NCBI GenBank assembly: GCA_017458005.1
Contig: JAFTGH010000050.1
Span: 1 to 39,813 of the forward strand
Reading direction: 5' to 3'
From: Prevotella sp.
GTDB taxonomy: Bacteria > Bacteroidota > Bacteroidia > Bacteroidales > Bacteroidaceae
DNA: 39,813 nucleotides
Below, piece after piece: positions 367-34,649 of this stretch. Every line of letters begins with the position of its first letter. Position 1 is the first letter of the stretch. The notes beneath the pieces are model-generated. The model did no database searches, was not told where the DNA came from, and worked only from the letters and a program-made list of their open reading frames with translations. The position numbers were made by a program, and so were the translations under genes.

Positions 367-2280
367 CTACTCCTCTGTAGTAGTACCTGCGTAAGCAGGA
401 TTCTGCTTCAGAAGCGTGTTCTTCATCAACTCGTCAGCAGGAATAGGCATATCCATCTTGTTGATGTCGAAGGTGAAGGTACGCTTTGACCAAGGATAGT
501 TAGCATAGTCTGAGCCACCGTCATCCTTTGGATAGTTATACTCGATGTGATCCTCGATATATCCAGACTTGATCATATCCGGGCAGAGACACCACTCAGA
601 GTTGAACTCCTTACGACGCTCCTCGTTGACAGCAACCTTCCAAGCAGGAGAGGTGTGCTTATAACCTTTACGGTTAGCCTTAGCCTGAAGTGCTGTGTAG
701 TATGTCTTTGCAGAAGGAACAGTAACTGTAGCAGTCAGTACACCAACAGGATACTCTGTCATGGTAACACCTTTCTGACCATTGAACTCATATACGGTGT
801 TGTAGTGAGCATAGTACTTGCTGTAGTCCTGACCAACGGTCAAGTTACCCCATGCACGGTTACGAATCTCATCGATGGCAGCCCAACCTGCGGCAGAGTT
901 CTCTCCCTCTGTGCGGAAGCAGCACTCAGCGTAGTCAAGCAGCACGTTCGCATAACGCTTGCCGTAGATGATAGTTGGAGCCCACATCTGACCACCCCAA
1001 GAGTTACCATCAGCACGTGCACTACGCCACATCTTGGTGGTCCAGATAGCAGGAGCGAACTCACCATTGGTGAAGTGGAACTGCATGGTCTTTGTTCCAG
1101 ACAGAACACCTTCTGCATTTTTGAAAGGCTTCACTACGTGCCCATCATCATCTTTAGTTCCAAGAGAGTCCTTCAGGTATGGATTGTATCCATATACAGA
1201 CTCAGACTTCTCGATGCCATACTTGGCAAGGTCTGCCTCAGGCACAGCACCTGTAGCACAAGATGCGTCACGACGGGTGTCGCCAGACTCATAACTTGCA
1301 TACCACTCCCATGAGAGGTACTGGGCACCCCAGCCACCGTTCTCAGGACAAGCGCAGAACCACTTCAACATGTTAGGATTAGCGAAGGTGATAGTACGGT
1401 CACCACCCCAACTACTCCACTCATTACCCTCATCAGATACCAAAGCCCAGATACACTCCTCGTTCCAGAATCCTGCGGGATCCCAGTTAGTAGCGAAGTT
1501 GGTAGAGAGTTTATAGGTACCACTGTCGATGATGCTCTTCAACTCAGCCTTAGCCTTGGCATAGCAGTCGGCTGCGGCTGAAGGAACACGGTAAGCCTTC
1601 CACATATAAGCGTCAGCGAGGTAAGCCTTAGCCATACCCTTGGTGCAACGACCATACTGACCGTTGTATGGAGTCCAATTCAGAAGGTCTGCAGCCTTAG
1701 AGAAGTCCTCGATGATGAAGTCCCACATCTCCTCGTAGGTCTCAGCGGCAGCCTTGTTAGGCGTATTGCTGAAGTCCTCACCTGTGGCAAGCATAGGCAC
1801 ACGACCGAAGGTAGTGGCAAGCCATGTGTAGAAATAGCCACGGAGTGCGCGAGCCTCACCTTCACAAAGTGCCTTGGCCTCAGGGCTTACATTCTCAGCC
1901 TCCTCCAGACCAGCCAGATAGAGGTTAGCACGGCTGATGGCTGCGTATGCATGAGCCCAGCCCTGACCGAGTTCACCTACGTTAGCGTCCCAGGTCTGGT
2001 CAAGGAACTTCACGTCCCAACCCGTACACTGGGTATCCATCGTCGGGTGGCTACCGGTAAACATATTTGGTTTGTAGCCCCAGCAGTCATCCTGCTTGCT
2101 GACATTGTTATAGGCATAGATACCGTTCAAGCCGAGGCGAGCATTGTCGTCACTCTCAAACTGAGCCTCAATGGCAAGAATGTCATATTGTGTAACGTCC
2201 AGGAACTTGTCGTTGTCACATGAAGTCAGTGCAACGCATCCCAAACCTACCAATGCAAAATATTTAATTGATTTTTTCAT
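367..2280 (-). CDS. SusD/RagB family outer-membrane nutrient-binding lipoprotein (left copy)
   Basis: A 637-residue SusD-like lipoprotein, expected on the cell surface as the lid of a SusC-type TonB-dependent transporter. The N-terminus is a lipoprotein signal with a lipobox ending LTSC (Cys21), followed by DNDKFLDV, typical of SusD family openings. Helical TPR-like SusD regions follow, and the C-terminus has the usual NPAY-type ending. It starts 18 bases after susC, so it is co-transcribed. It is almost co-linear with the 636-residue copy at 10.3-12.2 kb; differences cluster near the signal peptide and at residues around 520-560. No glycoside hydrolase, sulfatase or sigma/anti-sigma pair is next to it, so the substrate cannot be inferred. 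Family assignment is secure. Confidence 0.93.
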   Translation of the reverse strand: MKKSIKYFALVGLGCVALTSCDNDKFLDVTQYDILAIEAQFESDDNARLGLNGIYAYNNVSKQDDCWGYKPNMFTGSHPTMDTQCTGWDVKFLDQTWDANVGELGQGWAHAYAAISRANLYLAGLEEAENVSPEAKALCEGEARALRGYFYTWLATTFGRVPMLATGEDFSNTPNKAAAETYEEMWDFIIEDFSKAADLLNWTPYNGQYGRCTKGMAKAYLADAYMWKAYRVPSAAADCYAKAKAELKSIIDSGTYKLSTNFATNWDPAGFWNEECIWALVSDEGNEWSSWGGDRTITFANPNMLKWFCACPENGGWGAQYLSWEWYASYESGDTRRDASCATGAVPEADLAKYGIEKSESVYGYNPYLKDSLGTKDDDGHVVKPFKNAEGVLSGTKTMQFHFTNGEFAPAIWTTKMWRSARADGNSWGGQMWAPTIIYGKRYANVLLDYAECCFRTEGENSAAGWAAIDEIRNRAWGNLTVGQDYSKYYAHYNTVYEFNGQKGVTMTEYPVGVLTATVTVPSAKTYYTALQAKANRKGYKHTSPAWKVAVNEERRKEFNSEWCLCPDMIKSGYIEDHIEYNYPKDDGGSDYANYPWSKRTFTFDINKMDMPIPADELMKNTLLKQNPAYAGTTTEE

Positions 2281-2298: not shown

Positions 2299-5200
2299 TT
2301 AGAAGGTGATATTAAGACCACACTGGAATGTGCGAGGAGTTGCATAACGACCAGTATCAAGACCGGTGTAGATAACAGAACCCTGACCAACCTCAGGATC
2401 TCCGTACTTGGTGTAAGGAGAAATAGTGGCGAGGTTGTTGACGGCAACATATACACGTGCGCTCTGGAGATAGAGTTTCTTAGCGATCTCACGTGGCAGT
2501 GTGTAACCAACCTGGATATTGGAGATCTTCAAGAAGTTACCGTTCTCAATCCAAGCGTCGCTGATACGGCTGTTCTTATTGTTGTCCAGACGAGTCAGAC
2601 GAGGCAATGTACCATTAGGATTATCGTCACTCCACATAGCAGCGTAACTATCTACGCCAAGAGCAGGAGTCCAAGAGTCATCCGATGGGTTCATGATGCT
2701 CATACGCATCTTAGAGTAAGAGAGGATGTCCATACCGAGTACACCATAGGTGTAAACGCTGAAGTCCCAGTTCTTGTAAGAGGCGCTGAGGTTCAGACCG
2801 AAGTTGAAGGAAGGCAGACCATTGCCGAGGATGACACGGTCTTCGTCGTCCAGCGTGCCGCTTCCATCGGTATCCACGAAGAGGAAGTCACCCATTTCTG
2901 CATCCTGGCCCTGAGCCAAAGCCTTATCCAAGTCCTCCTGAGTCTTGATGATGCCGGCAACCTTGTAGCCATAGTAAGAACCTACAGCCTCACCCTCACG
3001 GCAGATAGAGTGGTTGTTCCATACAAAACCAGTTCCACTGATAGCACCGAGGTTAGAACCGTCGATGTCATCTGCTGAGTAAGTGCTGTTGCCACCGCTA
3101 CAGGTAGAGGTGTAGTCAACACCCATCTTCTTGATCTCGTTCTTCAAGGTAGAACCGTTGAAGGCAACGTTGATAGTCCAGTCCTTGTTCAGACGCTTGT
3201 TGTAGTTCACAGAGAACTCCAGACCGTAGTTGTTGATCTGACCAAAGTTGGTGTAGATAGAGGTGTTACCTGCAGAAGGACGAATCTGACGCTCCAGCAA
3301 CAGATCCTTGGTCTTACGGGTGAAGTAGTCGATGGTAACAGTCAGGTCGTTGTTCAGGAAACCGAGGTCGATACCGAAGTTCAACTGCTCGTTGGTCTCC
3401 CACTTCAGGTTGGTGTCAACCAGCGGAGCATAGAAGCCCTGAACACGGTCGAAAGAACCGGTTGGACCACCACCACCGTTCAACTGATAGAACTGATACT
3501 TAGTGTCTACAGAAGAAAGGGCATAGGTAGAGCGACCAGCGATACCACCAGCGTTACCTGTCTGACCCCAACCGAGACGAAGTTTAGCGTTGCTAAGCCA
3601 CTTGACATCCTTCATGAAAGGTTCCTCAGTGATACGCCATGCGAAGGCTGCTGATGGGAAAGTACCCCAACGGTTGCTAGAAGAGAAGTTAGAGGAACCG
3701 TCACGACGTACGGTAGCGGTCAGGATATAGCGGTCGAAGAGACTGTAGATCAAACGTCCGTAGTAAGAGATCGTCTTCACCTGGGCATTGAAACCACCGT
3801 TGCTTGGGTTAATGGTCTCTGCAAGAGAGATCAAACGGTTGTCTGCGGAGAGGAATGTGTGTCCTGATCCACTTACCCAAGAGCCCTCGTACTTGCTGAC
3901 AGAGTTACCGACCATCAGGGTCAGGTTGTGGAAATCAGTATTCCAGTTGTAGGTCAGGTAAGTCTCGATACCCTTGGAGAGGCCCTTGCTCTGACCGAGA
4001 CCGAAACTGTAGTACTCCTGGTCACGACCCTGATAAGTAACTGGGGTCATCTTACCGCCAATCATGTTGTAACGCTTGTACATACCAGAGAACTCGTCGT
4101 TGTCAGAGTTAGTCTGAGTCCAAGAGGCGATAGAGTGGAGGTTCAAGGTGTGCTCTTTCAGTTTGAGCAGTGTGATGTCGATGTAGGGGTTGATCGAGAT
4201 GCGTGAGTTACGGGTCTCACGACCGATCTCCATCTGAGAGGCGTAGGGGTTCTGAGCACCGGCGGTCATACCCTCCCAACCATCAGGCGTGGGAGCCTTA
4301 CTTGCACCGTATGTGCCGTCGGGGTTCACTACATTTACTTTCACGTGCTCACCAGTAACATCGTCGATGTAGTCGAGTGACGGAGCCATCTGGGCGATAT
4401 CACGCTGTGAGGACAGGTTGGCGTTGTTGCCAAGACCGATGTTGTTACCCTTAACGGTAGAGTACATATAGTTGATGTCGCCACCGAACTCGATGTAGTC
4501 GTTCACCTTAGACTTGATGCTGGCACGTGAGGTCAGACGGTCATAGTGTGTGTTGGCGATAATACCCTTCATGTCAAGGTATCCAACAGAGAAGTTGTAC
4601 TGAGTCTTGTCTGTACCACCAGAAGCGGAGATACCATACTGCTGACGAAGACCTGTCTGATACATCTGGTCCTGCCAGTCGATATAGTTGCGCTTGCCGT
4701 CGTATGCCTCAGACCAGATCTGGTTGTTCAGAGTAGCACCGTCGTTTTTCTTTGACTCACGGATAGAGCGGGCATAGTCGTCACCAGTCAGGGTGTCGAG
4801 TTTCCAAGGTAGTGTCTGGAGACCCCAGTCTGCGGTGATATTGACGTTCATCTTACCCTTCTGACCATGCTTGGTGGTGATCATGATGACACCGTTGGCA
4901 CCTGCGGAACCGTAGATGGCACTTGCGGAAGCATCCTTCAAGATCTCGATGTTCTCGATGTCTGAGGGGTTCACAAAGTCAGCGTTGTTACCAACCTGCA
5001 CACCGTCTACGACATACAGAGGCTGAGCATCACCGTTGATGGTTCCGATACCACGGATACGGATTGCTGACTTTGAGCCAGGAGCACCGTCCTGATTGGT
5101 AACCATCACACCGGCTGCGGCACCCTGCAGTGCCTGGGCGATGTTAACGGGAATCTTACGCTCCATCTGCTCCTTGTTGATCGTTGCAACAGATCCGGAG

Positions 5201-5565
5201 ATGTCGCTCTTCTTCATCGTACCGTAACCGATGACTACCACGTCGTTCAACGTGTTGGTGTCCTCCTTCAAGGTTACGCTGATGTTGTTTCTGCCACCAA
5301 CACTTACCTGCTGAGAAACATAGCCCACATAGGAGATGTTGAGTGTGGCGTTGGAAGCGGCGTTGACGCTGAACTGACCGTTGAAGTCAGTGATAGCACC
5401 CTCGTTGGTTCCTTGCACTTTGACGGTAGCACCGATGATAGGTTCACCAGTCTCGTCGTTTACAGTTCCTTTCACGATGCTTTGAGCCATAGCCCCCAGT
5501 GGGAACAAACAAAGCAGGAACAGAAAAACCAATGGCTTTTGAAGTAATTTAATTTTTCGATTCAT
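2299..5565 (-). CDS. SusC/RagA family TonB-dependent outer-membrane transporter (left copy)
   Basis: A 1088-residue SusC-type porin that imports a ligand captured by its SusD partner, powered by TonB. Visible in order: a signal peptide ending in AMAQ; a carboxypeptidase-regulatory-like beta-sandwich (about 30-110, VKGTVNDETGEP...); a plug domain beginning near VVVIGYGTMKKSDISGS with the IRIRGIGTINGDAQPLYVVDG region; and a large beta-barrel ending in the aromatic C-terminus GLNITF. It is about 90% alike to the copy at 6989-10261. Differences concentrate in stretches likely to be surface loops (for example near residues 555-580 and 680-720). It points left, and no consensus promoter is visible between its start and the divergent recombinase. 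It may therefore be silent in this orientation. Confidence 0.93.
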   Translation of the reverse strand: MNRKIKLLQKPLVFLFLLCLFPLGAMAQSIVKGTVNDETGEPIIGATVKVQGTNEGAITDFNGQFSVNAASNATLNISYVGYVSQQVSVGGRNNISVTLKEDTNTLNDVVVIGYGTMKKSDISGSVATINKEQMERKIPVNIAQALQGAAAGVMVTNQDGAPGSKSAIRIRGIGTINGDAQPLYVVDGVQVGNNADFVNPSDIENIEILKDASASAIYGSAGANGVIMITTKHGQKGKMNVNITADWGLQTLPWKLDTLTGDDYARSIRESKKNDGATLNNQIWSEAYDGKRNYIDWQDQMYQTGLRQQYGISASGGTDKTQYNFSVGYLDMKGIIANTHYDRLTSRASIKSKVNDYIEFGGDINYMYSTVKGNNIGLGNNANLSSQRDIAQMAPSLDYIDDVTGEHVKVNVVNPDGTYGASKAPTPDGWEGMTAGAQNPYASQMEIGRETRNSRISINPYIDITLLKLKEHTLNLHSIASWTQTNSDNDEFSGMYKRYNMIGGKMTPVTYQGRDQEYYSFGLGQSKGLSKGIETYLTYNWNTDFHNLTLMVGNSVSKYEGSWVSGSGHTFLSADNRLISLAETINPSNGGFNAQVKTISYYGRLIYSLFDRYILTATVRRDGSSNFSSSNRWGTFPSAAFAWRITEEPFMKDVKWLSNAKLRLGWGQTGNAGGIAGRSTYALSSVDTKYQFYQLNGGGGPTGSFDRVQGFYAPLVDTNLKWETNEQLNFGIDLGFLNNDLTVTIDYFTRKTKDLLLERQIRPSAGNTSIYTNFGQINNYGLEFSVNYNKRLNKDWTINVAFNGSTLKNEIKKMGVDYTSTCSGGNSTYSADDIDGSNLGAISGTGFVWNNHSICREGEAVGSYYGYKVAGIIKTQEDLDKALAQGQDAEMGDFLFVDTDGSGTLDDEDRVILGNGLPSFNFGLNLSASYKNWDFSVYTYGVLGMDILSYSKMRMSIMNPSDDSWTPALGVDSYAAMWSDDNPNGTLPRLTRLDNNKNSRISDAWIENGNFLKISNIQVGYTLPREIAKKLYLQSARVYVAVNNLATISPYTKYGDPEVGQGSVIYTGLDTGRYATPRTFQCGLNITF

Positions 5566-5601
5566 ACCTTAGTTATTTAATAAGAATTACACTTAAGTAT
5601 T
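5566..5601. repeat. Left inverted repeat bounding the recombinase segment
   Basis: Reading out from the left susC start, the upstream sequence contains AATACTTAAGTGTAATTCTT (5582-5601 on the opposite strand). It is identical over 20 bases to 6955-6974 upstream of the right susC. The remaining bases up to the start codon also match (TAAATAACTAAGGT), apart from a 2-base indel. Homology stops abruptly on the inner side. The block holds an ACTTAAGT palindrome. It may be a recombination site for the enclosed recombinase, or just conserved 5' leader of a duplicated gene. Confidence 0.6.
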
Positions 5602-5668
5602 AAGTTTTGACGTTAGTTTTACAGAACCCAAATCAATCAATGTTACATTAATAGTTTATTTTTTGATC

Positions 5669-6664
5669 ATGAAACAGTCACGGAAAAAGGAGAAAGTACC
5701 TACATTACTCAAAGTCTTTGATGCCGACAATGAACAATTTTACCAGAGGGTCGGCACGGATCGTTCTAGACACACTTATAATATAAAGGTACGCGCGAGA
5801 GAATATGTCGCTGATTATATACAAGCAGAAGTGCATCAGGCAGATGTGCCCTTGAACTATCTGACCTTGGAGTTTATCCAGCGTTTCAGTGTCTATCTTA
5901 GTGTGCGCCGTGGTTTGCATGGCGGCACCATCTGGTTAAACTGTATGATGCTAAAAGGGGTGGTTATCCGTGCTCATAAAAGGGGCATCGTTCGCACCAA
6001 TCCCTTTGCGGAGTTCCATGTGGCTAAAAACATCCGAGAACGGCAATACCTGACAGAAGAGGAACTCCATCAATTGATGTCATACCATTTCGCGGATTCC
6101 AGACAGACCTATACCCGTGATCTCTTTGTCTTTTCAGCCTTTACGGGGATGTCATTTGTTGATATCTATCATTTACGGAGGTCAGACATTCAATGTATTG
6201 ATGGGAATGTGTGGATTATCGCTTCACGTCAGAAGACAGGCATTCCCTTTAAAGTCAGACTTCTGAAACAGTCTTTGGCTATCATCCGGAAATATGCGGC
6301 AGATAACAAAGAGTCTATCTTCGACAGACTAAAATATCATGCTATCGCCAAGCGGTTGCCCGTCGTTCTTAGGGAATGTGGTATTGAGAAACCGGTTACC
6401 TTCCATTGCGCCCGTCATACTTTTGCTATTATGGCAATGAATCAGGGAATGCCTATTGAAAGTATCAGTCACATTTTAGGTCACTCTAATATCAAGACGA
6501 CCCAAATATATGCCCGTATCACCATGAAGAAACTGGATAGTGACTTTGTCCGCTTAGAGAAACGGTTGGATTCTGCACTTGACGACATGAAGCGAAAACG
6601 TTTGCGTAAAAAACATCCATTTTTATATTTTTTTATATCTCGTTTGCTGGCAAAAGGGGCATGA
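5669..6664 (+). CDS. Short tyrosine site-specific recombinase (invertase candidate)
   Basis: A tyrosine recombinase of about 331 residues when started at the ATG at 5669; an upstream TTG adds two residues. From the ATG it carries a SAM-like core-binding domain (about 25-110) and a catalytic domain with Lys189, HCAR (His246, Arg249), LGH (His272) and nucleophile Tyr281. The box I arginine is Ser162 (FTGMSFVDI), as in IntDOT-type Bacteroidota integrases. It lacks the roughly 100-residue arm-binding domain present in the integrase at 31937-33160, which is otherwise similar. That domain plan fits invertases acting on short inverted repeats better than element integrases. The tail is lysine-rich then hydrophobic. 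It lies between two divergent susC genes inside a 20-bp inverted repeat, suggesting it flips its own segment. It has no consensus promoter of its own. Confidence 0.88.
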   Translation: MKQSRKKEKVPTLLKVFDADNEQFYQRVGTDRSRHTYNIKVRAREYVADYIQAEVHQADVPLNYLTLEFIQRFSVYLSVRRGLHGGTIWLNCMMLKGVVIRAHKRGIVRTNPFAEFHVAKNIRERQYLTEEELHQLMSYHFADSRQTYTRDLFVFSAFTGMSFVDIYHLRRSDIQCIDGNVWIIASRQKTGIPFKVRLLKQSLAIIRKYAADNKESIFDRLKYHAIAKRLPVVLRECGIEKPVTFHCARHTFAIMAMNQGMPIESISHILGHSNIKTTQIYARITMKKLDSDFVRLEKRLDSALDDMKRKRLRKKHPFLYFFISRLLAKGA

Positions 6665-6988
6665 AATGTTAAAAAAGCGTGGAAAAACACCAAAAACGCA
6701 AGATTTTTTAAAAAAAAATCAAGAAAAAGCGATACCAATTCATAAATTTTTTTTATTTTTGCACGGTGAAATGAAGCATTCACACCCAATAATGAACACT
6801 AACTATTAACATATTATAAATATTAAACTAACAGAAATGCTATAAGAGAAAAAAAGAGACATCAGCCATTGCGGGTCCTAGGGGCTTGGCATGGAAGGGG
6901 ATTTTTCTCCGAAAACTAATAACCAAAAATGTATTTAACCAATCATCAAAGAAAAATACTTAAGTGTAATTCTTTAAATAACTAAGGT
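6665..6988 (+). promoter_or_regulatory. Right susC promoter and ~220-base leader
   Basis: There is no gene in this AT-rich gap. A TATTTTTG -7 element (6754-6761), followed by GC, fits the Bacteroidota TAnnTTTG consensus, but no TTTG -33 element lies 19-21 bases upstream, so it may be weak or need an activator. Transcription from it would give a leader of about 220 bases that includes a GC-rich patch (6867-6900). The stretch 6702-6720 can form an A/T-only hairpin after the recombinase gene, a poor terminator. The leader ends in the right inverted repeat. No comparable -7 element is seen on the left susC side. Confidence 0.55.
6955..6988. repeat. Right inverted repeat bounding the recombinase segment
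   Basis: AATACTTAAGTGTAATTCTT at 6955-6974 is the perfect inverted partner of 5582-5601. The following bases up to the susC start codon match too, with a 2-base indel. With the left copy it encloses 1.35 kb containing the recombinase gene and the susC promoter. Confidence 0.6.
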
Positions 6989-9900
6989 ATGAATCTAAAA
7001 ACTAAATCACTTCAAAAGCCATTGGTTTTTCTGTTCCTGCTTTGTTTGTTCCCACTGGGGGCTATGGCTCAAAGCATCGTGAAAGGAACTGTAAACGACG
7101 AGACTGGTGAACCTGTCATCGGTGCTACCGTCAAAGTGCAAGGAACCAACGAGGGTGCTATCACTGACTTCGATGGTAACTTCAGTGTGAAGGCTGCTTC
7201 GAATGCCACCCTGAGTGTTTCTTACGTGGGTTACATCACCCAGCAAGTAGCAGTGGGTGGTCGTAGCACTATCAACATTGTACTTAAGGAGGACACCAAC
7301 ACGTTGAACGACGTGGTAGTCATCGGTTACGGTACGATGAAGAAGAGCGACATCTCCGGATCTGTTGCAACGATCAACAAGGAGCAGATGGAGCGCAAGG
7401 TTCCCGTTAACATCGCCCAGGCGCTGCAGGGTGCCGCCGCCGGTGTGATGGTTACCAATCAGGACGGTGCTCCTGGTACTGCATCAGCCATCCGTATCCG
7501 TGGTATCGGAACCATCAACGGTGACGCTCAGCCTTTGTATGTTGTAGACGGTGTGCAGGTTGGTAACAACGCTGACTTCGTGAACCCCTCAGACATCGAG
7601 AACATCGAGATCCTGAAGGACGCCTCCGCAAGTGCCATCTACGGTTCCGCAGGTGCCAACGGTGTCATCATGATCACCACCAAGCACGGTCAGAAGGGTA
7701 AGATGAACATCAATGTTACCGCAGACTTCGGTATCCAGACACTGCCTTGGAAACTCGACACCCTGACAGGTGACGACTACGCCCGCTCAATCCGTGAGTC
7801 AAAGGCTAACGACGGTGCTACACTGAACAACCAGATCTGGTCTGAGGTTTATGACGGCAAGCGTAACTATATTGACTGGCAGGACCAGATGTATCAGACT
7901 GGCTTCAAGCAGCAGTATGGTATCTCCGCTTCTGGTGGTACTGACAAGACACAGTATAACTTCTCTGTCGGATATCTGAACAACAAGGGTATCGTTGTCA
8001 ACACCAACTATGACCGTCTGACCGCTCGTGCCAGCATCAAGTCTAAGGTGAACGACTACGTTGAGTTCGGTGGTGACGTTAACTACATGTACTCTACCGT
8101 TAAGGGTAACAACATCGGTCTTGGCAACAACGCCAACCTGTCCTCACAGCGTGATATCGCCCAGATGGCTCCGTCACTCGACTACATCGACGATGTTACA
8201 GGTGAGCATATCCTGGTGAATGTGGTGAACCCCGACGGCACATACGGTGCAAGTAAGGCTCCCACGCCTGACGGTTGGGAGGGTATGACAGCCGGCGCTC
8301 AGAACCCCTACGCCTCTCAGATGGAGATCGGTCGTGAGACCCGCAACTCACGTATCTCGATCAACCCCTACATTGACATCACACTGCTCAAACTGAAGGA
8401 GCATACCTTGAACCTCCACTCTATCGCCTCTTGGACACAGACCAACTCCGACAACGACGAGTTCTCTGGTTTGTACAAGCGTTACAACATGGTTGGCGGC
8501 AAGATGACACAGGTTACCTATCAGGGCCGTGACCAGGCCTACTATAGTTTCGGCCTCGGTCAGAGCAAGGGTCTCTCCAAGGGTATCGAGACTTACCTGA
8601 CTTACAACTGGAACACAGATTTCAACAACCTGACCCTGATGGTCGGTAACTCTGTCAGCAAGTACGAGGGCTCTTGGGTAAGTGCCAGTGCACACTCATT
8701 CCCATTTGCAACCAACCGTCTGATTTCTCTGACCGAAGATAAGGAATCAATCAATGGTAATGGTGGTTTCAATGCCCAAGTGAAGACTATCTCTTACTAT
8801 GGACGTTTGATCTACAGTCTCTTCGACCGCTATATCCTGACTGCTACCGTACGTCGTGACGGTTCCTCTAACTTTGGTTCAAAGAATCGTTGGGGTACCT
8901 TCCCATCAGCAGCCTTCGCATGGCGTATCACTGAGGAGCCTTTCATGAAGGATGTCAAGTGGCTCAACAACGCAAAACTGCGTATCGGTTGGGGTCAGAC
9001 AGGTAATGCCGGTAATATTGCGGGGCGTGCAGACTACGCTCTTGCTACAGCGGAAACTACTTACCAGTTCTACAAAGAAGGCCAAGGCGGTGGAACAAGT
9101 GGTGATTTCACTCGTTATATAGGTGCTTATGCTCCTCTGGTTGATAACAACCTGAAGTGGGAGACCAACGAGCAGTTGAACTTCGGTCTTGATCTCGGTT
9201 TCCTGAACAACGACCTGACAGTTACCATCGACTACTTCACCCGTAAGACCAAGGACCTGCTGCTCGAGCGTCAGATTCGTCCATCTGCAGGTTACTCTTC
9301 TATCTACACCAACTTTGGTCAGATCAACAACTACGGTCTGGAGTTCTCTGTGAACTACAACAAGCGTCTGAATAAGGACTGGTCTATCAACGTCGCCTTC
9401 AACGGCTCTACCCTGAAGAACGAGATCAAAAAGATGGGTGTTGACTACACCTCTACAGCCAGTGGTGGCAACAGCACTTATTCTGCCGATGACATTGACG
9501 GTTCTAACATCGGTGCTATCAGTGGTACAGGTTTCGTTTGGAACGACCACTCTATCTGCCGTGAGGGTGAGGCTGTAGGATCTTACTATGGCTATCGTGT
9601 GGCTGGCATCATCAAGACTGAGGAAGACCTTGCCAAGGCTAAGGCTCAGGGACAGAATGCCGCTATGGGTGACTATCTTTTTGTAGACACCGATGGTAAT
9701 GGAACGCTGAACGATGCTGACCGCGTGATTCTCGGCAATGGTCTGCCTTCCTTCAACTTTGGTCTGAACCTCAGCGCCACTTACAAGAACTGGGACTTCA
9801 GCGTTTACACCTATGGTGTACTCGGTATGGATATCCTCTCTTACTCTAAGATGCGTATGAGCATCATGAACCCATCGGATGACTCTTGGACTCCAGCCCT

Positions 9901-10261
9901 TGGCGTTGACAGTTACGCTGCTATGTGGAGCGAGAGCAATCCTAACGGCTCACTGCCTCGCCTGACTCGTCTGGACAACAACAAGAACAGCCGTATCAGC
10001 GACGCTTGGATTGAGAACGGTAACTTCCTGAAGATCTCCAACATCCAGGTTGGTTACACACTGCCACGCGACATCGTCAAGAAACTGTTGATTCAGAATG
10101 CCCGCGTATACTTCGCTATCCAGAACCTCGCTACTATTTCTCCTTACACCAAGTACGGAGATCCTGAGGTTGGTCAGGGTAGTGTCATCTACACTGGTCT
10201 TGATACTGGTCGTTATGCAACTCCTCGCACCTTCCAGTTCGGTCTTAATATCACATTCTAA
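6989..10261 (+). CDS. SusC/RagA family TonB-dependent outer-membrane transporter (right copy)
   Basis: A 1090-residue SusC-type transporter with the same domain order as the left copy: signal peptide ending AMAQ, regulatory-like beta-sandwich, plug, barrel, C-terminal GLNITF. The first ~55 codons are almost identical to the left copy at the DNA level, including silent positions. Other stretches differ mainly in probable loops (around residues 555-580 and 685-720) and near the C-terminus. It is the copy facing the recognisable promoter at 6754-6761, so it is probably the expressed one in this orientation. It is followed after 47 bases by its susD. No neighbour indicates the substrate. Confidence 0.93.
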   Translation: MNLKTKSLQKPLVFLFLLCLFPLGAMAQSIVKGTVNDETGEPVIGATVKVQGTNEGAITDFDGNFSVKAASNATLSVSYVGYITQQVAVGGRSTINIVLKEDTNTLNDVVVIGYGTMKKSDISGSVATINKEQMERKVPVNIAQALQGAAAGVMVTNQDGAPGTASAIRIRGIGTINGDAQPLYVVDGVQVGNNADFVNPSDIENIEILKDASASAIYGSAGANGVIMITTKHGQKGKMNINVTADFGIQTLPWKLDTLTGDDYARSIRESKANDGATLNNQIWSEVYDGKRNYIDWQDQMYQTGFKQQYGISASGGTDKTQYNFSVGYLNNKGIVVNTNYDRLTARASIKSKVNDYVEFGGDVNYMYSTVKGNNIGLGNNANLSSQRDIAQMAPSLDYIDDVTGEHILVNVVNPDGTYGASKAPTPDGWEGMTAGAQNPYASQMEIGRETRNSRISINPYIDITLLKLKEHTLNLHSIASWTQTNSDNDEFSGLYKRYNMVGGKMTQVTYQGRDQAYYSFGLGQSKGLSKGIETYLTYNWNTDFNNLTLMVGNSVSKYEGSWVSASAHSFPFATNRLISLTEDKESINGNGGFNAQVKTISYYGRLIYSLFDRYILTATVRRDGSSNFGSKNRWGTFPSAAFAWRITEEPFMKDVKWLNNAKLRIGWGQTGNAGNIAGRADYALATAETTYQFYKEGQGGGTSGDFTRYIGAYAPLVDNNLKWETNEQLNFGLDLGFLNNDLTVTIDYFTRKTKDLLLERQIRPSAGYSSIYTNFGQINNYGLEFSVNYNKRLNKDWSINVAFNGSTLKNEIKKMGVDYTSTASGGNSTYSADDIDGSNIGAISGTGFVWNDHSICREGEAVGSYYGYRVAGIIKTEEDLAKAKAQGQNAAMGDYLFVDTDGNGTLNDADRVILGNGLPSFNFGLNLSATYKNWDFSVYTYGVLGMDILSYSKMRMSIMNPSDDSWTPALGVDSYAAMWSESNPNGSLPRLTRLDNNKNSRISDAWIENGNFLKISNIQVGYTLPRDIVKKLLIQNARVYFAIQNLATISPYTKYGDPEVGQGSVIYTGLDTGRYATPRTFQFGLNITF

Positions 10262-10308: not shown

Positions 10309-12219
10309 ATGAAAAGAAAATCAATATATAGTTTGATTGCAGGAGCACTGGTATTGGCTGGATTCTCCTCCTGTGACAACGACAAGTTTCTGGACGTAGA
10401 TCAATATGACGTTGCAGACCTTAAGTATCAGTTTGAGAGCGATCATGCAGCACGTGTCAGTTTGAATGGTATTTATGTATACAATAACGTAAGTAAACAG
10501 GATAATTCCTGGGGATACAAACCCAATATGTTTACCGGCAGCCACCCGACAATGGATACCCAGTGTACGGGTTGGGACGTGAAGTTCCTCGATCAGACAT
10601 GGGACGCTAACGTAGGTGAACTCGGTGAGGGCTGGGCCCATGCTTACGCTGCTATCTGTCGCGCTAACCTCTATCTGGCTGGTCTGGAGGAGGCGGAAAA
10701 CATTAGTGCTTCAGCCAAGGCTCTTTGTGAGGGTGAGGCTCGTGCACTCCGTGGCTATTTCTACACATGGCTTGCCACGACTTTCGGTCGTGTGCCTATG
10801 CTTGCCACTGGTGAGGACTTTAACAACACGCCTAACAAGGCTGCTGCTGAGACCTACGAGGAGATGTGGGACTTCATCATCGAGGACTTTACTGCTGCTG
10901 CTAATCTCCTGGATTGGACTCCTTATAACAAAGAGTATGGTCGTTGCACCAAGGGTATGGCTAAGGCTTACCTCGCTGATGCCTATATGTGGAAGGCTTA
11001 CCGTGTTCCATCAGCAGCAGCCGACTGCTATGCCAAGGCAAAGAGTGAGTTGAAGAGCATCATCGACAGCGGTACCTATGAACTTTCTTCTAACTTCGCT
11101 ACCAACTGGGATCCCGCAGGATTCTGGAACAAGGAGTGTATCTGGGCGATGTGTTCTGATGAAGGTAACCAGTGGAGCAGTTGGGGTGGCGACCGTACCA
11201 TCACTTTCTGTAATCCTAACATGCTGAAGTGGTTCTGCGCTTGTCCTGAGAACGGAGGCTGGGGTGCCCAGTACCTCTCATGGGAATGGTATGCAAGTTA
11301 TGAGTCTGGTGACACCCGTCGTGACGCGTCTTGCGCTACAGGTGCTGTTCCTGAGGCAGACCTTGCCAAATATGGTATCGAGAAGTCTGAGACTGTATAT
11401 GGATACAATCCTTACCTGAAGGACTCTCTTGGAACTAAAGATGATAATGGTCACGTTGTGAAGCCTTTCTACAATGCTGAAGGTGTGCTGTCTGGAACCA
11501 AGACCATGCAGTTCCACTTCACCAATGGTGAGTTCGCTCCTGCTATCTGGACAACCAAGATGTGGCGTAGTGCCTATGCAGATGGTAATTCTTGGGGTAC
11601 TCAGATGTGGGCTCCAACTATCATCTACGGCAAGCGTTATGCTAACGTGCTGCTTGACTATGCAGAGTGCTGCTTCCGCACTGAGGGAGGGAACTCTGCC
11701 GCAGGTTGGGCTGCTATTGATGAGATCCGTAACCGTGCATGGGGTAACTTGACAGTTGATCAAGACTACAGCAGGTACTATGCTCACTACAATCAGGTTT
11801 ATGCAGGCAATGGTAAGGATCTTACTATGACCGAGTATCCTGTTGGTGTGCTGACTGCTACAGTTACTGTTCCTGATGCAAAGACCTACTACGAAGCACT
11901 TGCCGCTAAACCAAACCGTGTAGGTTATGTTCACAAGTCTGAGGCTTGGAAGGTCGCTGTCAACGAGGAGCGTCGTAAGGAGTTCAACTCTGAGTGGTGT
12001 CTCTGCCCGGATATGATCAAGTCTGGTTATATTGAGGATCACATTGAGTATAACTATCCAAAGGATGATGGTGGCTCAGACTATGCAAACTATCCTTGGT
12101 CAAAGCGTACCTTCGACTTCGACATCAACAAGATGGATATGCCTATTCCTGCTACAGAGTTGTTGAAGAACACGCTCCTGAAGCAGAATCCTGGCTATGC
12201 AGGTGCTTCGGAGGAATAA
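10309..12219 (+). CDS. SusD/RagB family outer-membrane nutrient-binding lipoprotein (right copy)
   Basis: A 636-residue SusD-like surface lipoprotein. The signal peptide ends in a lipobox GFSSC (Cys22), followed by DNDKFLDV as in the left copy. The mature proteins are near-identical through most of the length. They diverge in the first ~50 residues and in a segment around residues 515-560 that may line the ligand site. It belongs to an operon with the upstream susC (47-base spacing) and is terminated by the hairpin at 12245-12271, which is also the first part of repeat copy 1. Large antisense frames inside the gene (for example 11278-12042) are coding-strand shadows. Confidence 0.93.
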   Translation: MKRKSIYSLIAGALVLAGFSSCDNDKFLDVDQYDVADLKYQFESDHAARVSLNGIYVYNNVSKQDNSWGYKPNMFTGSHPTMDTQCTGWDVKFLDQTWDANVGELGEGWAHAYAAICRANLYLAGLEEAENISASAKALCEGEARALRGYFYTWLATTFGRVPMLATGEDFNNTPNKAAAETYEEMWDFIIEDFTAAANLLDWTPYNKEYGRCTKGMAKAYLADAYMWKAYRVPSAAADCYAKAKSELKSIIDSGTYELSSNFATNWDPAGFWNKECIWAMCSDEGNQWSSWGGDRTITFCNPNMLKWFCACPENGGWGAQYLSWEWYASYESGDTRRDASCATGAVPEADLAKYGIEKSETVYGYNPYLKDSLGTKDDNGHVVKPFYNAEGVLSGTKTMQFHFTNGEFAPAIWTTKMWRSAYADGNSWGTQMWAPTIIYGKRYANVLLDYAECCFRTEGGNSAAGWAAIDEIRNRAWGNLTVDQDYSRYYAHYNQVYAGNGKDLTMTEYPVGVLTATVTVPDAKTYYEALAAKPNRVGYVHKSEAWKVAVNEERRKEFNSEWCLCPDMIKSGYIEDHIEYNYPKDDGGSDYANYPWSKRTFDFDINKMDMPIPATELLKNTLLKQNPGYAGASEE

Positions 12220-12240
12220 AGCAATACTTAGATAGTAATA

Positions 12241-12341
12241 AAAAGGAGTCACATCACCACGATGTGGCTCCCTTTTGTTTTTCCCTCTCCCAAAGTTTTT
12301 CTGGGAAAGTTTGGAAGATTGGAAATAATATTATACCTTTG
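12241..12341 (+). repeat. Terminator-promoter repeat, copy 1
   Basis: Three parts in order. First, an 11-bp hairpin (12245-12255 with 12261-12271, one G-T wobble) with a T-rich tail, ending the susD transcript. Second, a conserved block TCCCAAAGTTTTTCTGGG plus AAAGTTTGG. Third, a promoter with -33 TTTG (12310-12313), a 20-base spacer and -7 TACCTTTG (12334-12341). The promoter lies 28 bases before the ORF6N gene. Three more copies follow downstream. Confidence 0.8.
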
Positions 12342-12368: not shown

Positions 12369-12947
12369 ATGACAGATTTATTACTCATACAAAGCAGAAT
12401 TTTCGAGATAAGAGGAATTCGTGTCATGCTTGACCGTGATTTGGCTTCACTTTACGGAGTGGAAACGAAGGTGTTGAATCAAGCGGTAAAACGCAATATC
12501 AGAAGATTTCCATCCGACTTTATGTTTCAATTGACTAAAGAAGAATTAAATAATTGGAAGTCACAAATTGTTACCTCCAATTCGGACAAGATGGGACTAC
12601 GACGCCCACCTTATGCCTTTACAGAACAAGGAGTTGCTATGCTAAGTGGGGTTTTGAATTCTAATGCCGCTATTGATACAAACATAAAGATTATGCGAGC
12701 CTTCGTCGCTGTTAGGAGAATGTTAGCATTACCAGATACTTCTGATAGAATCTCTAAGTTGGAGGAGGAGTTGGAATCGCTCAAAAAAGACATGAACGAT
12801 TCCTTAGCAGACCAAAATGACATAAATGAGTCAACTCGTGCCCAAATTGATGCTATTAGTACCGCATTGGCAGAACTGCAAGTTCCTACAGAAAAGAAGA
12901 AATACAAACCTATCGGCTTTGTAATACCTAATGATGATAAAGAATGA
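12369..12947 (+). CDS. ORF6N domain-containing DNA-binding protein
   Basis: A 192-residue protein with an N-terminal ORF6N domain (about 8-95). Typical motifs are IRGIRVMLDRDLASLYGVETKVLNQ written across residues 15-40, RFPSDFMFQLT, and the PYAFTEQGVAMLSGVL stretch. A charged coiled-coil-like segment follows (about 125-165), then a basic tail. ORF6N proteins are frequent in Bacteroidota accessory regions and phages and are thought to bind DNA; the exact role is unknown. It is transcribed from its own copy of the terminator-promoter repeat and has no partner gene, unlike the toxin-antitoxin units that follow. Confidence 0.88.
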   Translation: MTDLLLIQSRIFEIRGIRVMLDRDLASLYGVETKVLNQAVKRNIRRFPSDFMFQLTKEELNNWKSQIVTSNSDKMGLRRPPYAFTEQGVAMLSGVLNSNAAIDTNIKIMRAFVAVRRMLALPDTSDRISKLEEELESLKKDMNDSLADQNDINESTRAQIDAISTALAELQVPTEKKKYKPIGFVIPNDDKE

Positions 12948-12980
12948 GAACTCAATCCCTCACTTTTATAAACTGCTCCG

Positions 12981-13071
12981 CATCACCACGATGTGACTCC
13001 CTTTTGCTTCCCCACCCTCCCAAAGTTTTTCTGGGAAAGTTTGGGACTTACAATTTTTCTTCGTACATTTG
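12981..13071 (+). repeat. Terminator-promoter repeat, copy 2 (left hairpin arm degraded)
   Basis: It shares CATCACCACGATGTGACTCC and the conserved TCCCAAAGTTTTTCTGGG plus AAAGTTTGGG block with the other copies. The left arm of the hairpin is altered, so only about four pairs remain and termination is probably lost. The promoter is intact: TTTG (13040-13043), 20-base spacer, TACATTTG (13064-13071), 27 bases before the antitoxin start. Confidence 0.75.
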
Positions 13072-13097
13072 CAACCGAAGAGAAAAAGTAAAGAAGT

Positions 13098-13370
13098 ATG
13101 GCAACTATAACATTGAACCAAACTATATACAATCATGCTAAGAAATATGCAGAATCGCAGAATCTTAGTGTGGATGAGTTTATAGTGTCTCTTATTAACA
13201 AGTTTGTTCCATCTAAAAGAAAGAAGAAATACCAAATGAAATCAATAGACGAATTGTCACCTGAACTCCAAGAAATTATTGGCTTTGCCAAACCGACAGG
13301 TGAAGACAGGGATGACATTAACGGAGATAATGCCAGAATGGGGTATCTTTCTGAGAAATACAATTTATGA
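13098..13370 (+). CDS. Antitoxin of a VapBC-type pair (DUF6364-like)
   Basis: A 90-residue protein. The N-terminal half (ITLNQTIYNHAKKYAESQNLSVDEFIVSLINKF) has the pattern of a ribbon-helix-helix DNA-binding fold seen in many antitoxins. The charged C-terminal half would neutralise the toxin. It overlaps the next gene by four bases (ATGA), the usual antitoxin-toxin arrangement. It is probably autoregulatory with its toxin at the repeat-borne promoter just upstream. The family name is tentative; the antitoxin role is inferred mainly from context. Confidence 0.75.
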   Translation: MATITLNQTIYNHAKKYAESQNLSVDEFIVSLINKFVPSKRKKKYQMKSIDELSPELQEIIGFAKPTGEDRDDINGDNARMGYLSEKYNL

Positions 13371-13789
13371 AAAAGATTTTCTTAGATACTAACATCTTAC
13401 TCGATGTCATAGAAGGACGTCCAAAATTTCTTGTTGCATCTTCTAATGTTTTGGATTTTGCTATAAGGAAAAAGATACAACTATTTGCCACTTCTCTAAC
13501 TTTTGCAAATTGTGCTTATATAGCACGAAAAAATGTTGGATACGAAAACGCTATAAAAGGCTTAATTGCTTTAAAGAAACTAATCACTATAGCACCCATG
13601 GATGACCAACAATGTGAGAAAGCATTGCATTCGGTAGCACCAGATTTTGAAGATATGCTTCAATATATGGCTGCTCAGGCTGCAGAATGTGAGATCATTG
13701 TAACAAGAGATTACAACAGACACTTCCCTACTGATGGAATCCCTATCATGTCCCCAGAATCTTTCCTTGAAACTTTTGCTAAAGAATAA
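13367..13789 (+). CDS. PIN-domain ribonuclease toxin (VapC-like), intact
   Basis: A 140-residue PIN domain protein, full length for the family. Acidic metal-binding residues are visible: Asp7 in FLDTNILLD, Glu95/Asp96 in DFEDMLQY, and Asp115 in IVTRDYNRHF. PIN toxins cleave RNA, often tRNA, when freed from their antitoxin. The gene overlaps its antitoxin gene by four bases and is followed immediately by repeat copy 3. It is the only complete toxin among the units of this array. Confidence 0.88.
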   Translation: MKKIFLDTNILLDVIEGRPKFLVASSNVLDFAIRKKIQLFATSLTFANCAYIARKNVGYENAIKGLIALKKLITIAPMDDQQCEKALHSVAPDFEDMLQYMAAQAAECEIIVTRDYNRHFPTDGIPIMSPESFLETFAKE

Positions 13790-13796
13790 GTAATAA

Positions 13797-13899
13797 AAGC
13801 GGAGTCACATCACCACGATGTGGCTCCCTTTTGTTTTTCCTACTCTCCCAAAGTTTTTCTGGGAAAGTTTGGAAGATATTTAGAAAATAGTTATCTTTG
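13797..13899 (+). repeat. Terminator-promoter repeat, copy 3
   Basis: A complete copy: an 11-bp hairpin beginning GGAGTCACATC at 13801 with a T-rich tail, the conserved TCCCAAAGTTTTTCTGGG plus AAAGTTTGG block, and a promoter TTTG (13868-13871), 20 bases, TATCTTTG (13892-13899). The stretch from the conserved block through the -7 element and the next few bases (CAAACGA) is identical to copy 4. This suggests copies 3 and 4 are the most recent duplicates. Confidence 0.8.
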
Positions 13900-31936: not shown

Positions 31937-33160
31937 ATGAGTAGATCAACTTTCAACATCCTCTTTTATGCCAATAAGAGCAAAGAGAAAAACGGAATTG
32001 TCCCCATCATGGGACGTGTGACAATCAACGGCACTCAAAGCCAGTTCAGTTGTAAGAAAAGCATTCCACTGGAAATGTGGGACGTGAAAGGCAACTGTGC
32101 CAAAGGTCGTAGCAAGGAAGCCTTGCAACTTAACCGTGACCTTGACAACATCAAGGCACAGATTATCAAGCACTATCAGCATCTTTCGGATAGAGAGGCT
32201 TTCGTGACGGCAGAAATGGTGCGCAATGCTTATCAGGGCTTGGGCAACGAGTACGAGACATTGTTAGGTGCATTCGACAAAGATAATGCCAAGTTGCTAC
32301 AACGTGTGGGAAAAGACCGTTCAATGGCAACATACAGGACATTGGTACGCGCCAGGAACCATGTGGCTGTATTCGTCAAAAGCCACTATAAGCGAACTGA
32401 TATTGCCATGAAGGAACTTACCCCCGACTTCATCAAGGACTTCTCCGTGTTCCTGGCCAATGAGCGGAATCTCCATTACGGCTCAATTTGGACAACCGTC
32501 ATCTGGGTGAAGGGTGTCGTAATGAGAGCGCATCAAAACGGACTGATTCCCCGCAACCCGTTTGCGCAGTTCCATCTGCCCCGCAATGTAAAGGAGCGTG
32601 AGTATCTGACGGAGGACGAACTGAAGCAGGTGATGATGCATCCGTTCGAGAATGCCGAACTTGCTTTCATCAGAGACATCTTCGTGTTCGCCTCATTCAC
32701 GGCATTGTCGTTTGTGGATATTCAGGAACTGACCACCGACGAGATTGTTGATGTGAACGGTGACAAATGGATTATCGGTAAACGACGCAAGACAGGCATA
32801 CCATTTCAGGTGAAAATGATGGATGTTCCCTTGCAGATTATCGAGCGATACAAGCATCTACAGGAAGACAACCTGGTATTTGGCAAGATTAACTACTGGA
32901 CGGTCTGTAAGAAGATAAAGACCGTTATATCTGAGTGTGGCATCACAAAGTCCATCTCAATGCACTGTGCGAGACATGGCTACGCGACCTTGGCACTTTC
33001 AAAAGGGGTTCCTATTGAGAGCGTAAGCAGTGTCTTGGGTCATACGAACATCATCACGACTCAGATATATGCGAAAATCACAGCACAGAAGTTGGACACT
33101 GACTTGACCATGCTGAACGACAAACTCAACGCATCATTCAGTAATATCAAAATGGCATAA
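31937..33160 (+). CDS. Tyrosine-recombinase integrase of a mobilizable element
   Basis: A 407-residue integrase with an arm-binding domain (about 1-100, STFNILFYANKSKEKNGIVPIMGRVTI), a core-binding domain (about 105-210) and a catalytic domain. Catalytic residues visible are Lys285, His343 and Arg346 (HCARHGY), His369 (LGHT) and Tyr378 (QIYAKI). The box I arginine is replaced by Ser258 (FTALSFVDI), as in IntDOT of Bacteroides. It integrates or excises the downstream mobilization genes. Beyond residue ~105 it is clearly related to the shorter recombinase at 5669-6664. Confidence 0.92.
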   Translation: MSRSTFNILFYANKSKEKNGIVPIMGRVTINGTQSQFSCKKSIPLEMWDVKGNCAKGRSKEALQLNRDLDNIKAQIIKHYQHLSDREAFVTAEMVRNAYQGLGNEYETLLGAFDKDNAKLLQRVGKDRSMATYRTLVRARNHVAVFVKSHYKRTDIAMKELTPDFIKDFSVFLANERNLHYGSIWTTVIWVKGVVMRAHQNGLIPRNPFAQFHLPRNVKEREYLTEDELKQVMMHPFENAELAFIRDIFVFASFTALSFVDIQELTTDEIVDVNGDKWIIGKRRKTGIPFQVKMMDVPLQIIERYKHLQEDNLVFGKINYWTVCKKIKTVISECGITKSISMHCARHGYATLALSKGVPIESVSSVLGHTNIITTQIYAKITAQKLDTDLTMLNDKLNASFSNIKMA

Positions 33161-33164
33161 CATT

Positions 33165-33527
33165 ATGGAGCAGAGAAACATCATCAAGTGGAACGACGAC
33201 AACACACTGTCAATCCCTACAGGCGAGATATGGATGAGCGAGACCGAACTAGTTGACCTCTTCGGCGTTTTCATTCCCAAGTTGAGAAACGCCATAAATG
33301 CCCTATACAAAGAGGAACAGGTTAGACCTTACGAGGCAGAGCGGACTATCAAGGTGCAGCGGAATCTATATCTTACCGTCTATAACTTCGAGGTCGTGCT
33401 GTTACTGGCCTTCCGTCTCAATTCCTATCAGACGAGGGCTGTCCGTAGGGAACTGATGGAGCGAATCAACCGAGATCACAAGCCTTTCGAGATTATCCTC
33501 ACCGCCACAAGAGGAACGGGAAACTGA
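33165..33527 (+). CDS. RhuM-like fragment / conserved element protein
   Basis: A 120-residue protein starting 4 bases after the integrase, so co-transcribed. The first half (WNDDNTLSIPTGEIWMSETELVDLFGVF) and the YNFEVVLLLAFRLNSYQTRAVRREL stretch resemble the N-terminal part of virulence RhuM-family proteins, which are more than twice as long. Small forms are common next to Bacteroides integrases. The function is unknown. Confidence 0.65.
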   Translation: MEQRNIIKWNDDNTLSIPTGEIWMSETELVDLFGVFIPKLRNAINALYKEEQVRPYEAERTIKVQRNLYLTVYNFEVVLLLAFRLNSYQTRAVRRELMERINRDHKPFEIILTATRGTGN

Positions 33528-33547
33528 GGCTGACAGTAAACATCAAA

Positions 33548-33593
33548 GCAGAAAGACGAATGATTAGCGATAGTCTGTCATTCGTCTTTCTGC
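33548..33593. terminator. Bidirectional terminator between integrase and excisionase genes
   Basis: A perfect 16-bp inverted repeat (33548-33563 with 33578-33593, GCAGAAAGACGAATGA and its complement, 14-base loop) separates two convergent transcripts. The stem is long and T/A-flanked rather than followed by a clean U-run. Confidence 0.75.
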
Positions 33594-33624
33594 GTCTTAA
33601 TCCTCTTGGGGGAAGAACTATCCA

Positions 33625-33930
33625 TTACTTGCCATCTTGCCGACGTGCCGGATGATAGCAACTTTGCAGCAGATTCTCCAAATCACTCTCCCTATAAAGC
33701 ACCTTCCCACCCAGCAAGACATACGGTAGCGTTCCGTCATTGCGGTACTCCTGCAAAGTGCGTCGGCAGACCTTCAGGACTTTGGAAGTCTCATCATCTG
33801 TCAGATAGCGTTCACCGTTGAGCATAGGACGGTAATTCTCGGTCACCTGCTTACACAGGTTACGCAATTCATTCATGGTGTCCCTCATTCTCTTGACACT
33901 TGGGTTTTGTGGTAATATCAGTTCATTCAT
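33625..33930 (-). CDS. Helix-turn-helix (excisionase-type) protein 1
   Basis: A 101-residue protein. The C-terminal half has the MerR-like excisionase helix-turn-helix pattern (RYLTDDETSKVLKVCRRTLQEYRNDGTLPYVLLGGKVLYRESDLENLL, about 42-90), as in Bacteroides element proteins annotated as HTH_17. Such proteins assist excision or regulate mobilization. It follows a second protein of the same fold, 32 bases away. Confidence 0.85.
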   Translation of the reverse strand: MNELILPQNPSVKRMRDTMNELRNLCKQVTENYRPMLNGERYLTDDETSKVLKVCRRTLQEYRNDGTLPYVLLGGKVLYRESDLENLLQSCYHPARRQDGK

Positions 33931-33962
33931 AATCGCTAATGTCTTTAGTTCCTACTCTCTGT

Positions 33963-34292
33963 TTACTTGCTATGCTTACTACGCTTACGCCAGATGGCAT
34001 CCTTCTTGTAGTCTTCCACGTCCTGCAAGATGGCTTGCACATCCTCAGGCTTATAGAAAATCTTTCGCTCTATCTGGGTATATGCCAGTTTCCCGTTGTC
34101 ACGGAAGGTCTGCAAGGTTCTTTGACTGATTTTCAACGTGTCACATACATACTTGCTGTCAACCCACTCCCCAAGACGCTTATCAGTGTCTGCGCCCCTG
34201 TTAAGCATTGTTCTCATTTCTTCTGCAAACTTCTCAAAGTCCGTCTGCATTTCGTTGAACGTGTTACGTTCGATTCCAACTAATTCTATCAT
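33963..34292 (-). CDS. Helix-turn-helix (excisionase-type) protein 2
   Basis: About 109 residues if begun at the ATG at 34292 (MIELVGIERNTF). The longer frame to 34445 extends through tandem promoter-like repeats and is unlikely. It has an N-terminal helical stretch and an HTH segment YVCDTLKISQRTLQTFRDNGKLAYTQIERKIFYKPEDVQAIL in the second half, with a lysine-rich end. It is paired with HTH protein 1, a typical layout in Bacteroides mobilizable elements. Confidence 0.8.
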   Translation of the reverse strand: MIELVGIERNTFNEMQTDFEKFAEEMRTMLNRGADTDKRLGEWVDSKYVCDTLKISQRTLQTFRDNGKLAYTQIERKIFYKPEDVQAILQDVEDYKKDAIWRKRSKHSK

Positions 34293-34335
34293 TCTTCTTA
34301 ATATTTTATTTGTTACTATTTTTTCTTTTTGTCGG

Positions 34336-34640: not shown

Positions 34641-34649
34641 CTCGTTTAG

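Follow-up and report, generated by a model that had tools for sequence, protein, structure and literature searches.

A putative self-encoded promoter-inversion switch between mirror-image SusC-SusD operons in Prevotella

Described phase-variable importers and the Prevotella locus

According to published accounts, SusC/SusD genes of Bacteroides fragilis phase-vary by DNA inversion (PMC4747536, PMC12632263), and the Tsr0667 system consists of one invertase that acts on three SusC/SusD clusters and nine other regions in a shufflon-type manner (Nakayama-Imaohji 2009, as cited in PMC4747536). In B. intestinalis, entire TonB/SusD clusters are reported to invert (PVR3 and others), often flanked by a dedicated recombinase (PMC8375218), and Mpi, which controls invertible capsule promoters, is presented as a global serine invertase that acts on many promoters elsewhere in the B. 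fragilis genome (PMC4747536, PMC12632263). Invertible regions near susC/susD have also been reported in inflammatory bowel disease cohorts, in a paper whose main text does not mention Prevotella (PMC10939037), and searches of open-licence papers gave none that, judged by its title or the opening of its abstract, describes a SusC/SusD inversion in Prevotella.

Here, we analyzed a stretch of 39,813 nt (hereafter the window) of Prevotella sp. (assembly GCA_017458005.1 of 3.05 Mb, contig JAFTGH010000050.1, positions 1-39,813, forward strand), in which two susC-susD pairs diverge from a 1.42-kb centre (Table 1). We consider it highly likely that the segment from ~5599 to 6957 is an invertible promoter cassette, which its own recombinase would invert at two ACTTAAGT sites, so that transcription reaches one importer or the other. 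The cassette would thus be a compact, self-contained form of the known phase-variable SusC/SusD systems, with a Hin-like layout built on a tyrosine recombinase. Indeed, in the Hin/fljBA switch of Salmonella, a serine recombinase gene and a promoter lie inside one ~1-kb invertible segment, the promoter driving an operon and a repressor, and the present locus likewise places a promoter and its own recombinase gene inside the putatively flipped piece. Unlike Hin, it combines a tyrosine enzyme with two mirror-image operons, and no repressor would be needed.

Compared with the other systems described in the sources above, the proposed switch resembles Tsr0667 by its site-specific recombinase, DNA inversion and alternative SusC/SusD outer-membrane proteins, PVR3 by a dedicated recombinase beside phase-variable nutrient-uptake operons, and the Mpi capsule promoters by invertible promoters for surface structures. 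In contrast to Tsr0667, one recombinase sits here inside the 1.36-kb segment, and the several genomic targets of a single invertase were not found: a 17-bp part of the site (ACTTAAGT plus nine gene-side bases) has exactly two matches in the whole assembly at up to two mismatches, both at this locus, in a search that would miss sites having other gene-side bases. A separate search for AAAAATACTTAAGT followed by the start context gave one match only. In contrast to B. intestinalis, the promoter, leader and recombinase would invert here and the importer genes would stay put. The initial annotation had set this locus against known Bacteroides switches as ones using separate invertases, which is too broad, since dedicated recombinases are published; it holds insofar as these are described as flanking the inverted genes (PMC8375218).

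Table 1. Features of the central locus, by position in the window (a slash marks a joint)
Feature	Positions	Strand	Remarks
Left susD	367-2280	-	637 aa; PF07980 + PF14322
Left susC	2299-5565	-	1088 aa; PF07715 + PF13715; clade A
20-bp inverted repeat, left arm	5582-5601	+	inner junction CTTAAT/ACTTAAGT
ACTTAAGT 8-bp palindrome, left site	5591-5598	.	common to 13 junctions compared
Tyrosine recombinase	5669-6664	+	331 aa; PF00589 + PF13102; inside putative invertible segment
-7 element TATTTTTG	6754-6761	+	TAnnTTTG motif search; faces right susC
Leader	6762-6957	+	~220 nt; conserved CCATTGCGGGTCCYAGGGRCTTGGCRTGG hairpin sequence + second predicted hairpin
20-bp inverted repeat, right arm	6955-6974	-	inner junction AAGAAAAAT/ACTTAAGT
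ACTTAAGT palindrome, right site	6958-6965	.	junction comparison
Right susC	6989-10261	+	1090 aa; PF07715 + PF13715; promoter now faces this copy
Right susD	10309-12219	+	636 aa; PF07980; first residues resemble clade-B SusDs

Both pairs have the composition of SusC-SusD importers (a SusC with TonB plug and CarbopepD_reg domains and an adjacent SusD_RagB protein), and the left and right proteins of the window are 90% (SusC) and 88% (SusD) identical, so that coordinates, domains and identities agree with the two near-identical pairs facing away from a 1.4-kb centre that were first proposed. Both susC frames are open, with dN 0.061 and dS 0.386, whole-gene averages that give no support to positive selection on the pair; the amino-acid differences are concentrated in two stretches, aligned residues 566-592 and 682-714. 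The recombinase of the centre matches PF00589 (E 1.4e-21) and has the K, H-x-x-R, H and Y residues of tyrosine recombinases. Residues K189, H246, R249, H272 and Y281, which we take to be catalytic, are kept in the six aligned recombinase rows that cover them, and the usual first Arg is Ser in TGMS, as in IntDOT-like enzymes of Bacteroidetes. The arm-binding domain PF17293 gave no match in this 331-aa protein and is present in the 407-aa integrase at 31937-33160, which bears out the short recombinase without an arm domain noticed at the outset.

The promoter asymmetry stood in part. The -7 element TATTTTTG faces the right susC as claimed, and no conserved promoter faces the left susC in the present orientation. 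However, the further statement that no TAnnTTTG faces the left copy is literally untrue, since a minus-strand match at 6503-6510 faces the left susC from ~940 bp away, over the recombinase codons for the conserved TQIYA. This match is found at the same place in one of the five relatives checked (RUG14585); other minus-strand matches in relatives are scattered, and RUG11506 has none. Note that TAnnTTTG is common in the window (33 occurrences versus 21.7 expected), so that one occurrence by itself says little for or against a promoter. In all 13 related susC leaders examined (7 with recombinase and 6 without an intact one), a TAnnTTTG precedes the leader motif by 109-127 nt, and a strict TAnnTTTG just upstream of the recombinase gene occurs in RUG037 only.

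The 20-bp inverted repeat at the edges of the centre is perfect, and an 18-bp part of it has two matches in the window at up to three mismatches versus 0.03 expected. The repeat nevertheless runs on into a 1757-nt inverted repeat of 90% identity formed by the two susC starts. Within the window alone, it is thus no independent evidence of a recombination site and could be a plain duplication.

Cassette junctions and orientation among relatives

Scanning the genome collection gave seven loci from six genomes, all Prevotella or Prevotellaceae: RUG037, RUG14585, RGIG3765, UBA2754, RUG11506 and RGIG4438 (two contigs), with one assembly per species (L016/L065, L017/L061 and L067 were treated as copies of L009, L011 and L010 because their contigs are equally long, and L062 is identical to L015; each was counted once). 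Their recombinases are 58-69% identical to that of the window. In all six relatives, the 5′ side of the recombinase adjoins an outward-facing susC and its 3′ side the leader and the other susC, and the order recombinase, promoter, leader and right site is the same in 7/7 cassettes. Five of the seven have nothing else between the two susCs. The exceptions are RGIG3765, with ~4.5 kb of other DNA between recombinase and leader, and RGIG4438, whose recombinase is split over two contigs by an apparent insertion (L013 6416-6536, L015 1-140); the outer flanks of both RGIG4438 contigs match the left and right flanks of the window. The additional DNA of RGIG3765 includes frames of 453 and 614 aa on the minus strand (L011 9004-12609), inside the putative invertible segment. 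The system is rare, since recombinase searches detected it in 3 of 299 same-genus genomes at E <= 1e-100 and in the same three of 397 at E <= 1e-105, the genome of the window included.

The comparison of junctions provides the evidence on the site that the window alone cannot give. On the promoter side, the joint AAGAAAAAT/ACTTAAGT is present without change in 7/7 right junctions (window and six relatives), and the recombinase-side joint CTTAAT/ACTTAAGT occurs in the six left junctions found, junctions being classed as right when AAAT precedes the palindrome and as left otherwise, a classification that agrees with the recombinase position at each locus. In these 13 junctions, sequence outside ACTTAAGT follows the gene and sequence inside follows the side of the cassette. 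Since ACTTAAGT is common to all 13 and the flanks differ by gene or cassette side, crossover likely takes place at 5591-5598 and 6958-6965, and ACTTAAGT is the probable crossover region.

The orientation of the cassette relative to its arms was compared through the SusC clades. Clade A contains both SusCs of the window, RGIG4438_left, UBA2754_right and RUG11506_right (85-94% identical; the left SusC of the window is 94% identical to RGIG4438_left), clade B contains RGIG4438_right, UBA2754_left and RUG11506_left (71-84% identical), and a third group is more distant. The recombinase side is occupied by the clade-A SusCD in RGIG4438 and by clade B in UBA2754 and RUG11506, and the promoter side by clade B in RGIG4438 and by clade A in the other two genomes, even though these opposite-side SusCs remain 85-87% (clade A) and 71-84% (clade B) identical. 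SusDs group as SusCs do, more weakly for RUG11506_left (53-55% identity to other B SusDs, 44-45% to A). As DNA, the alleles can be aligned only up to the site (L012 9264-14539 with L013 5608-378; L012 2515-7925 with L015 6109-695). The contrast sets one genome against two; it is seen with contig L013 alone and with L015 alone, and thus stands whether or not the two contigs form a single locus. The window, with clade A on both sides, is silent on this contrast. In addition, RUG037_left and RGIG3765_right SusCs are 82% identical on opposite sides, a case that arm replacement could explain since the partner arms are only 47% identical. Because clades A and B occupy swapped sides among relatives, the cassette lies in opposite orientations relative to its arms, most simply because it inverted one or more times in the A/B group while the arms stayed in place. 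A fixed orientation in all relatives, named initially as an argument against a switch, was not seen when RGIG4438 was compared with UBA2754 and RUG11506.

The conserved joints and the opposite orientations in relatives thus lend support to the promoter-inversion switch first suggested for this locus, with both orientations found between species only, relative to orthologous arms, and with a recombinase gene and an outward promoter in one segment bounded by inverted sites. In the proposed mechanism, the recombinase would pair the two inverted sites and invert ~1.36 kb, after which promoter and leader would feed the susC-susD operon on one side, right or left, the other operon being without a conserved promoter. 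The inverted state would join CTTAATACTTAAGT to the right-arm spacer GTAATTCTTTAAATAAC and AAAAATACTTAAGT to the left-arm spacer GTAATTCTTATTAAATAAC; no such extra junction is present in the assembly of the window, as expected of a consensus. Since the leader ends at the site and both susCs share the start context ACTAAGGTATGAAT (palindrome to ATG, 25 nt on the left and 23 nt on the right), the mRNA start should be equivalent in the two orientations. In addition, the recombinase, being inside the segment, would always move with its sites and, if transcribed from inside it, could be expressed in both states. We infer that this recombinase catalyzes the reaction, that the strain still undergoes inversion and that orientation governs expression. 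If active, the locus would constitute a one-recombinase, two-site, two-state nutrient-importer switch in Prevotella-like bacteria. It would then offer a way to test what Bacteroidales gain from phase-varying their importers, be it substrate choice, an altered phage receptor or immune evasion, and would provide a compact inversion module that is built on a tyrosine recombinase and has well-defined sites.

Leaders, lost recombinases and competing readings

The leader motif (up to three mismatches) was found in 11 of 398 same-genus genomes, one copy each, and the RNA model R1 of the leader matched in 7 of 100 genus genomes (one R1 match, in G061, with 31/58 positions, was left out of the leader counts). 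Ten leaders with no intact recombinase in the DNA retrieved around them were retained, six from the motif search and four from the R1 search, with at most ~1.5 kb of DNA on each side. Exact AAAAATACTTAAGT is present in one and the palindrome in four of these ten, versus 7/7 for leaders with recombinase, a contrast that favours the inversion mechanism but is no formal test since the leader loci are related to each other. In G687, a relic of the recombinase C-terminus (residues 280-313) lies beside the leader, which is probably a dead switch.

These losses bear on a first alternative, namely that an ancestral switch is now locked in this strain with the right operon on and the left silent; we hold this to be unlikely, and its chances overlap with those of the inversion mechanism itself. 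The altered sites of most leaders without recombinase and the G687 relic go in its direction, as do the damaged cassettes of relatives: RUG11506 is without the left site and the recombinase N-terminus, the broken recombinase of RGIG4438 is a possible natural locked switch, and the damage in these two and in RGIG3765 represents either assembly faults or locked switches. The window itself, however, has an intact recombinase and two intact sites, and its susCs have both stayed open at the dN and dS given above, which speaks against a locked state.

A role of the leader as regulatory RNA was also considered. Each of the 13 short leader segments has two predicted hairpins, but the 212-nt leader of the window folds no better than its shuffles (z 0.20), none of the pairs has substitutions in both partners and columns pair equally often after shuffling, so that covariation does not prove the structure; a comparison with Rfam gave no match (six sources searched). 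Positions 6866-6923, which carry the CCATTGCGGGTCCYAGGGRCTTGGCRTGG motif and the second predicted hairpin, have counterparts in 13 related susC leaders, and a two-codon frame (ATG, one codon, stop) stands just 5′ of the leader motif in 9 of the 13, being exactly ATGCCATAA in five.

A second alternative accepts the inversion and attributes it to RecA, through homologous recombination of the two inverted susC starts, with the recombinase as a passenger or the relic of an inserted element. The 1757-nt repeats that flank the centre would offer the substrate, and since clades A and B share 83% identity in the first ~790 bp, orthology can confine the crossover only to the interval from the site to about codon 100, so that recombination in the gene starts could flip the cassette. 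The arm starts are also homogenized in two of the three diverged A/B loci, an effect that gene conversion alone can produce. Indeed, in RGIG4438 and RUG11506 the two arms are 94-100% identical over codons 1-60 and 48-83% afterwards (the corresponding values for orthologues between genomes are 77-100% in codons 1-60 and 61-89% past codon 100), which we read as exchange near the site and count in favour of the inversion cassette as well; UBA2754 (93, 96 and 83%) has no clear excess over orthologues. This second explanation nevertheless seems improbable to us, given that recombinase and joints stay together in seven genomes despite the divergence of the recombinases, that the joints are kept even where the arms are poor repeats (SusC identity of 54% in RUG037 and 50% in RGIG3765), and that all six relatives from the scan sit at this kind of locus.

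The last reading takes the recombinase for the integrase of a mobile element that landed between duplicated susCs, and the repeats for duplicated 5′ leaders only. It can draw on the wider recombinase relatives, which are longer integrases (frames of ~400-470 aa, two of them in the genome of the window at 45% identity), and on the right site, which resembles the normal end of related susC leaders, but it is very hard to reconcile with the five of seven cassettes that hold no other DNA between the susCs, the arm domain not found, the same position and joints in seven genomes and the opposite orientation relative to the arms. A family-wide profile search gave matches in 54 of 399 genomes at E <= 1e-90; among the matches listed outside the recombinase of the window, most are ~400-470-aa frames, which we take by their length to be arm-bearing. 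Seven relatives with frames of 369-372 aa had no SusC near any of them (three of the stretches ended at contig ends) and were dropped, and the viral contigs searched contained no relative.

Module reuse and neighbouring features

The same kind of module is found between SusC pairs that are only ~30% identical to each other, and RUG14585 displays a mixed composition. Over codons 1-30, its left SusC has 87-96% DNA identity to clades A and B and 39-46% to RUG037 and RGIG3765, and over codons 101-160 it has 87% to RUG037_left and 46-52% to A/B. Across the same codons, the right SusC shares 96-98% with the left, which makes both arms mixed. The recombinases of RUG14585 and RUG11506 are 84% identical, although the SusCs of the two are overall only 33-34% identical. 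Cassette and gene starts therefore seem to have been reused with different importer bodies. We give an even chance to the suggestion that this unit, made up of the recombinase, promoter and leader plus the first ~30-60 codons of either susC, is a portable either/or selector that has been reloaded with different importer pairs over evolution.

In the window, the right SusD begins (10309-10360) with the N-terminus MKRKSIYSLIAGALVL, as in RGIG4438_right and nearly as in UBA2754_left, on a clade-A body. The right pair thus looks like a B position overwritten by A, and this clade-B start on a clade-A SusD may be taken as a sign of gene conversion between the arms.

Outside the centre, a shared hairpin (GGAGCCACATC...GATGTGACTCC) recurs at 305-358, 12236-12281, 12981-13005 and 13784-13837, i.e., after the susD genes and twice further right; these hairpins are probably terminators copied with the operons. 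An ORF6N-domain protein and a PIN-domain protein lie right of the right operon (12369-13789). Further away, 31937-37177 is probably an integrative mobilizable element, with an arm-bearing integrase and matches to the mobilization proteins MbpA and MobB below their curated cut-offs, and five minus-strand TAnnTTTG motifs stand at ~100-bp spacing in 34335-34760, two of them within 93-nt copies that are 80% alike.
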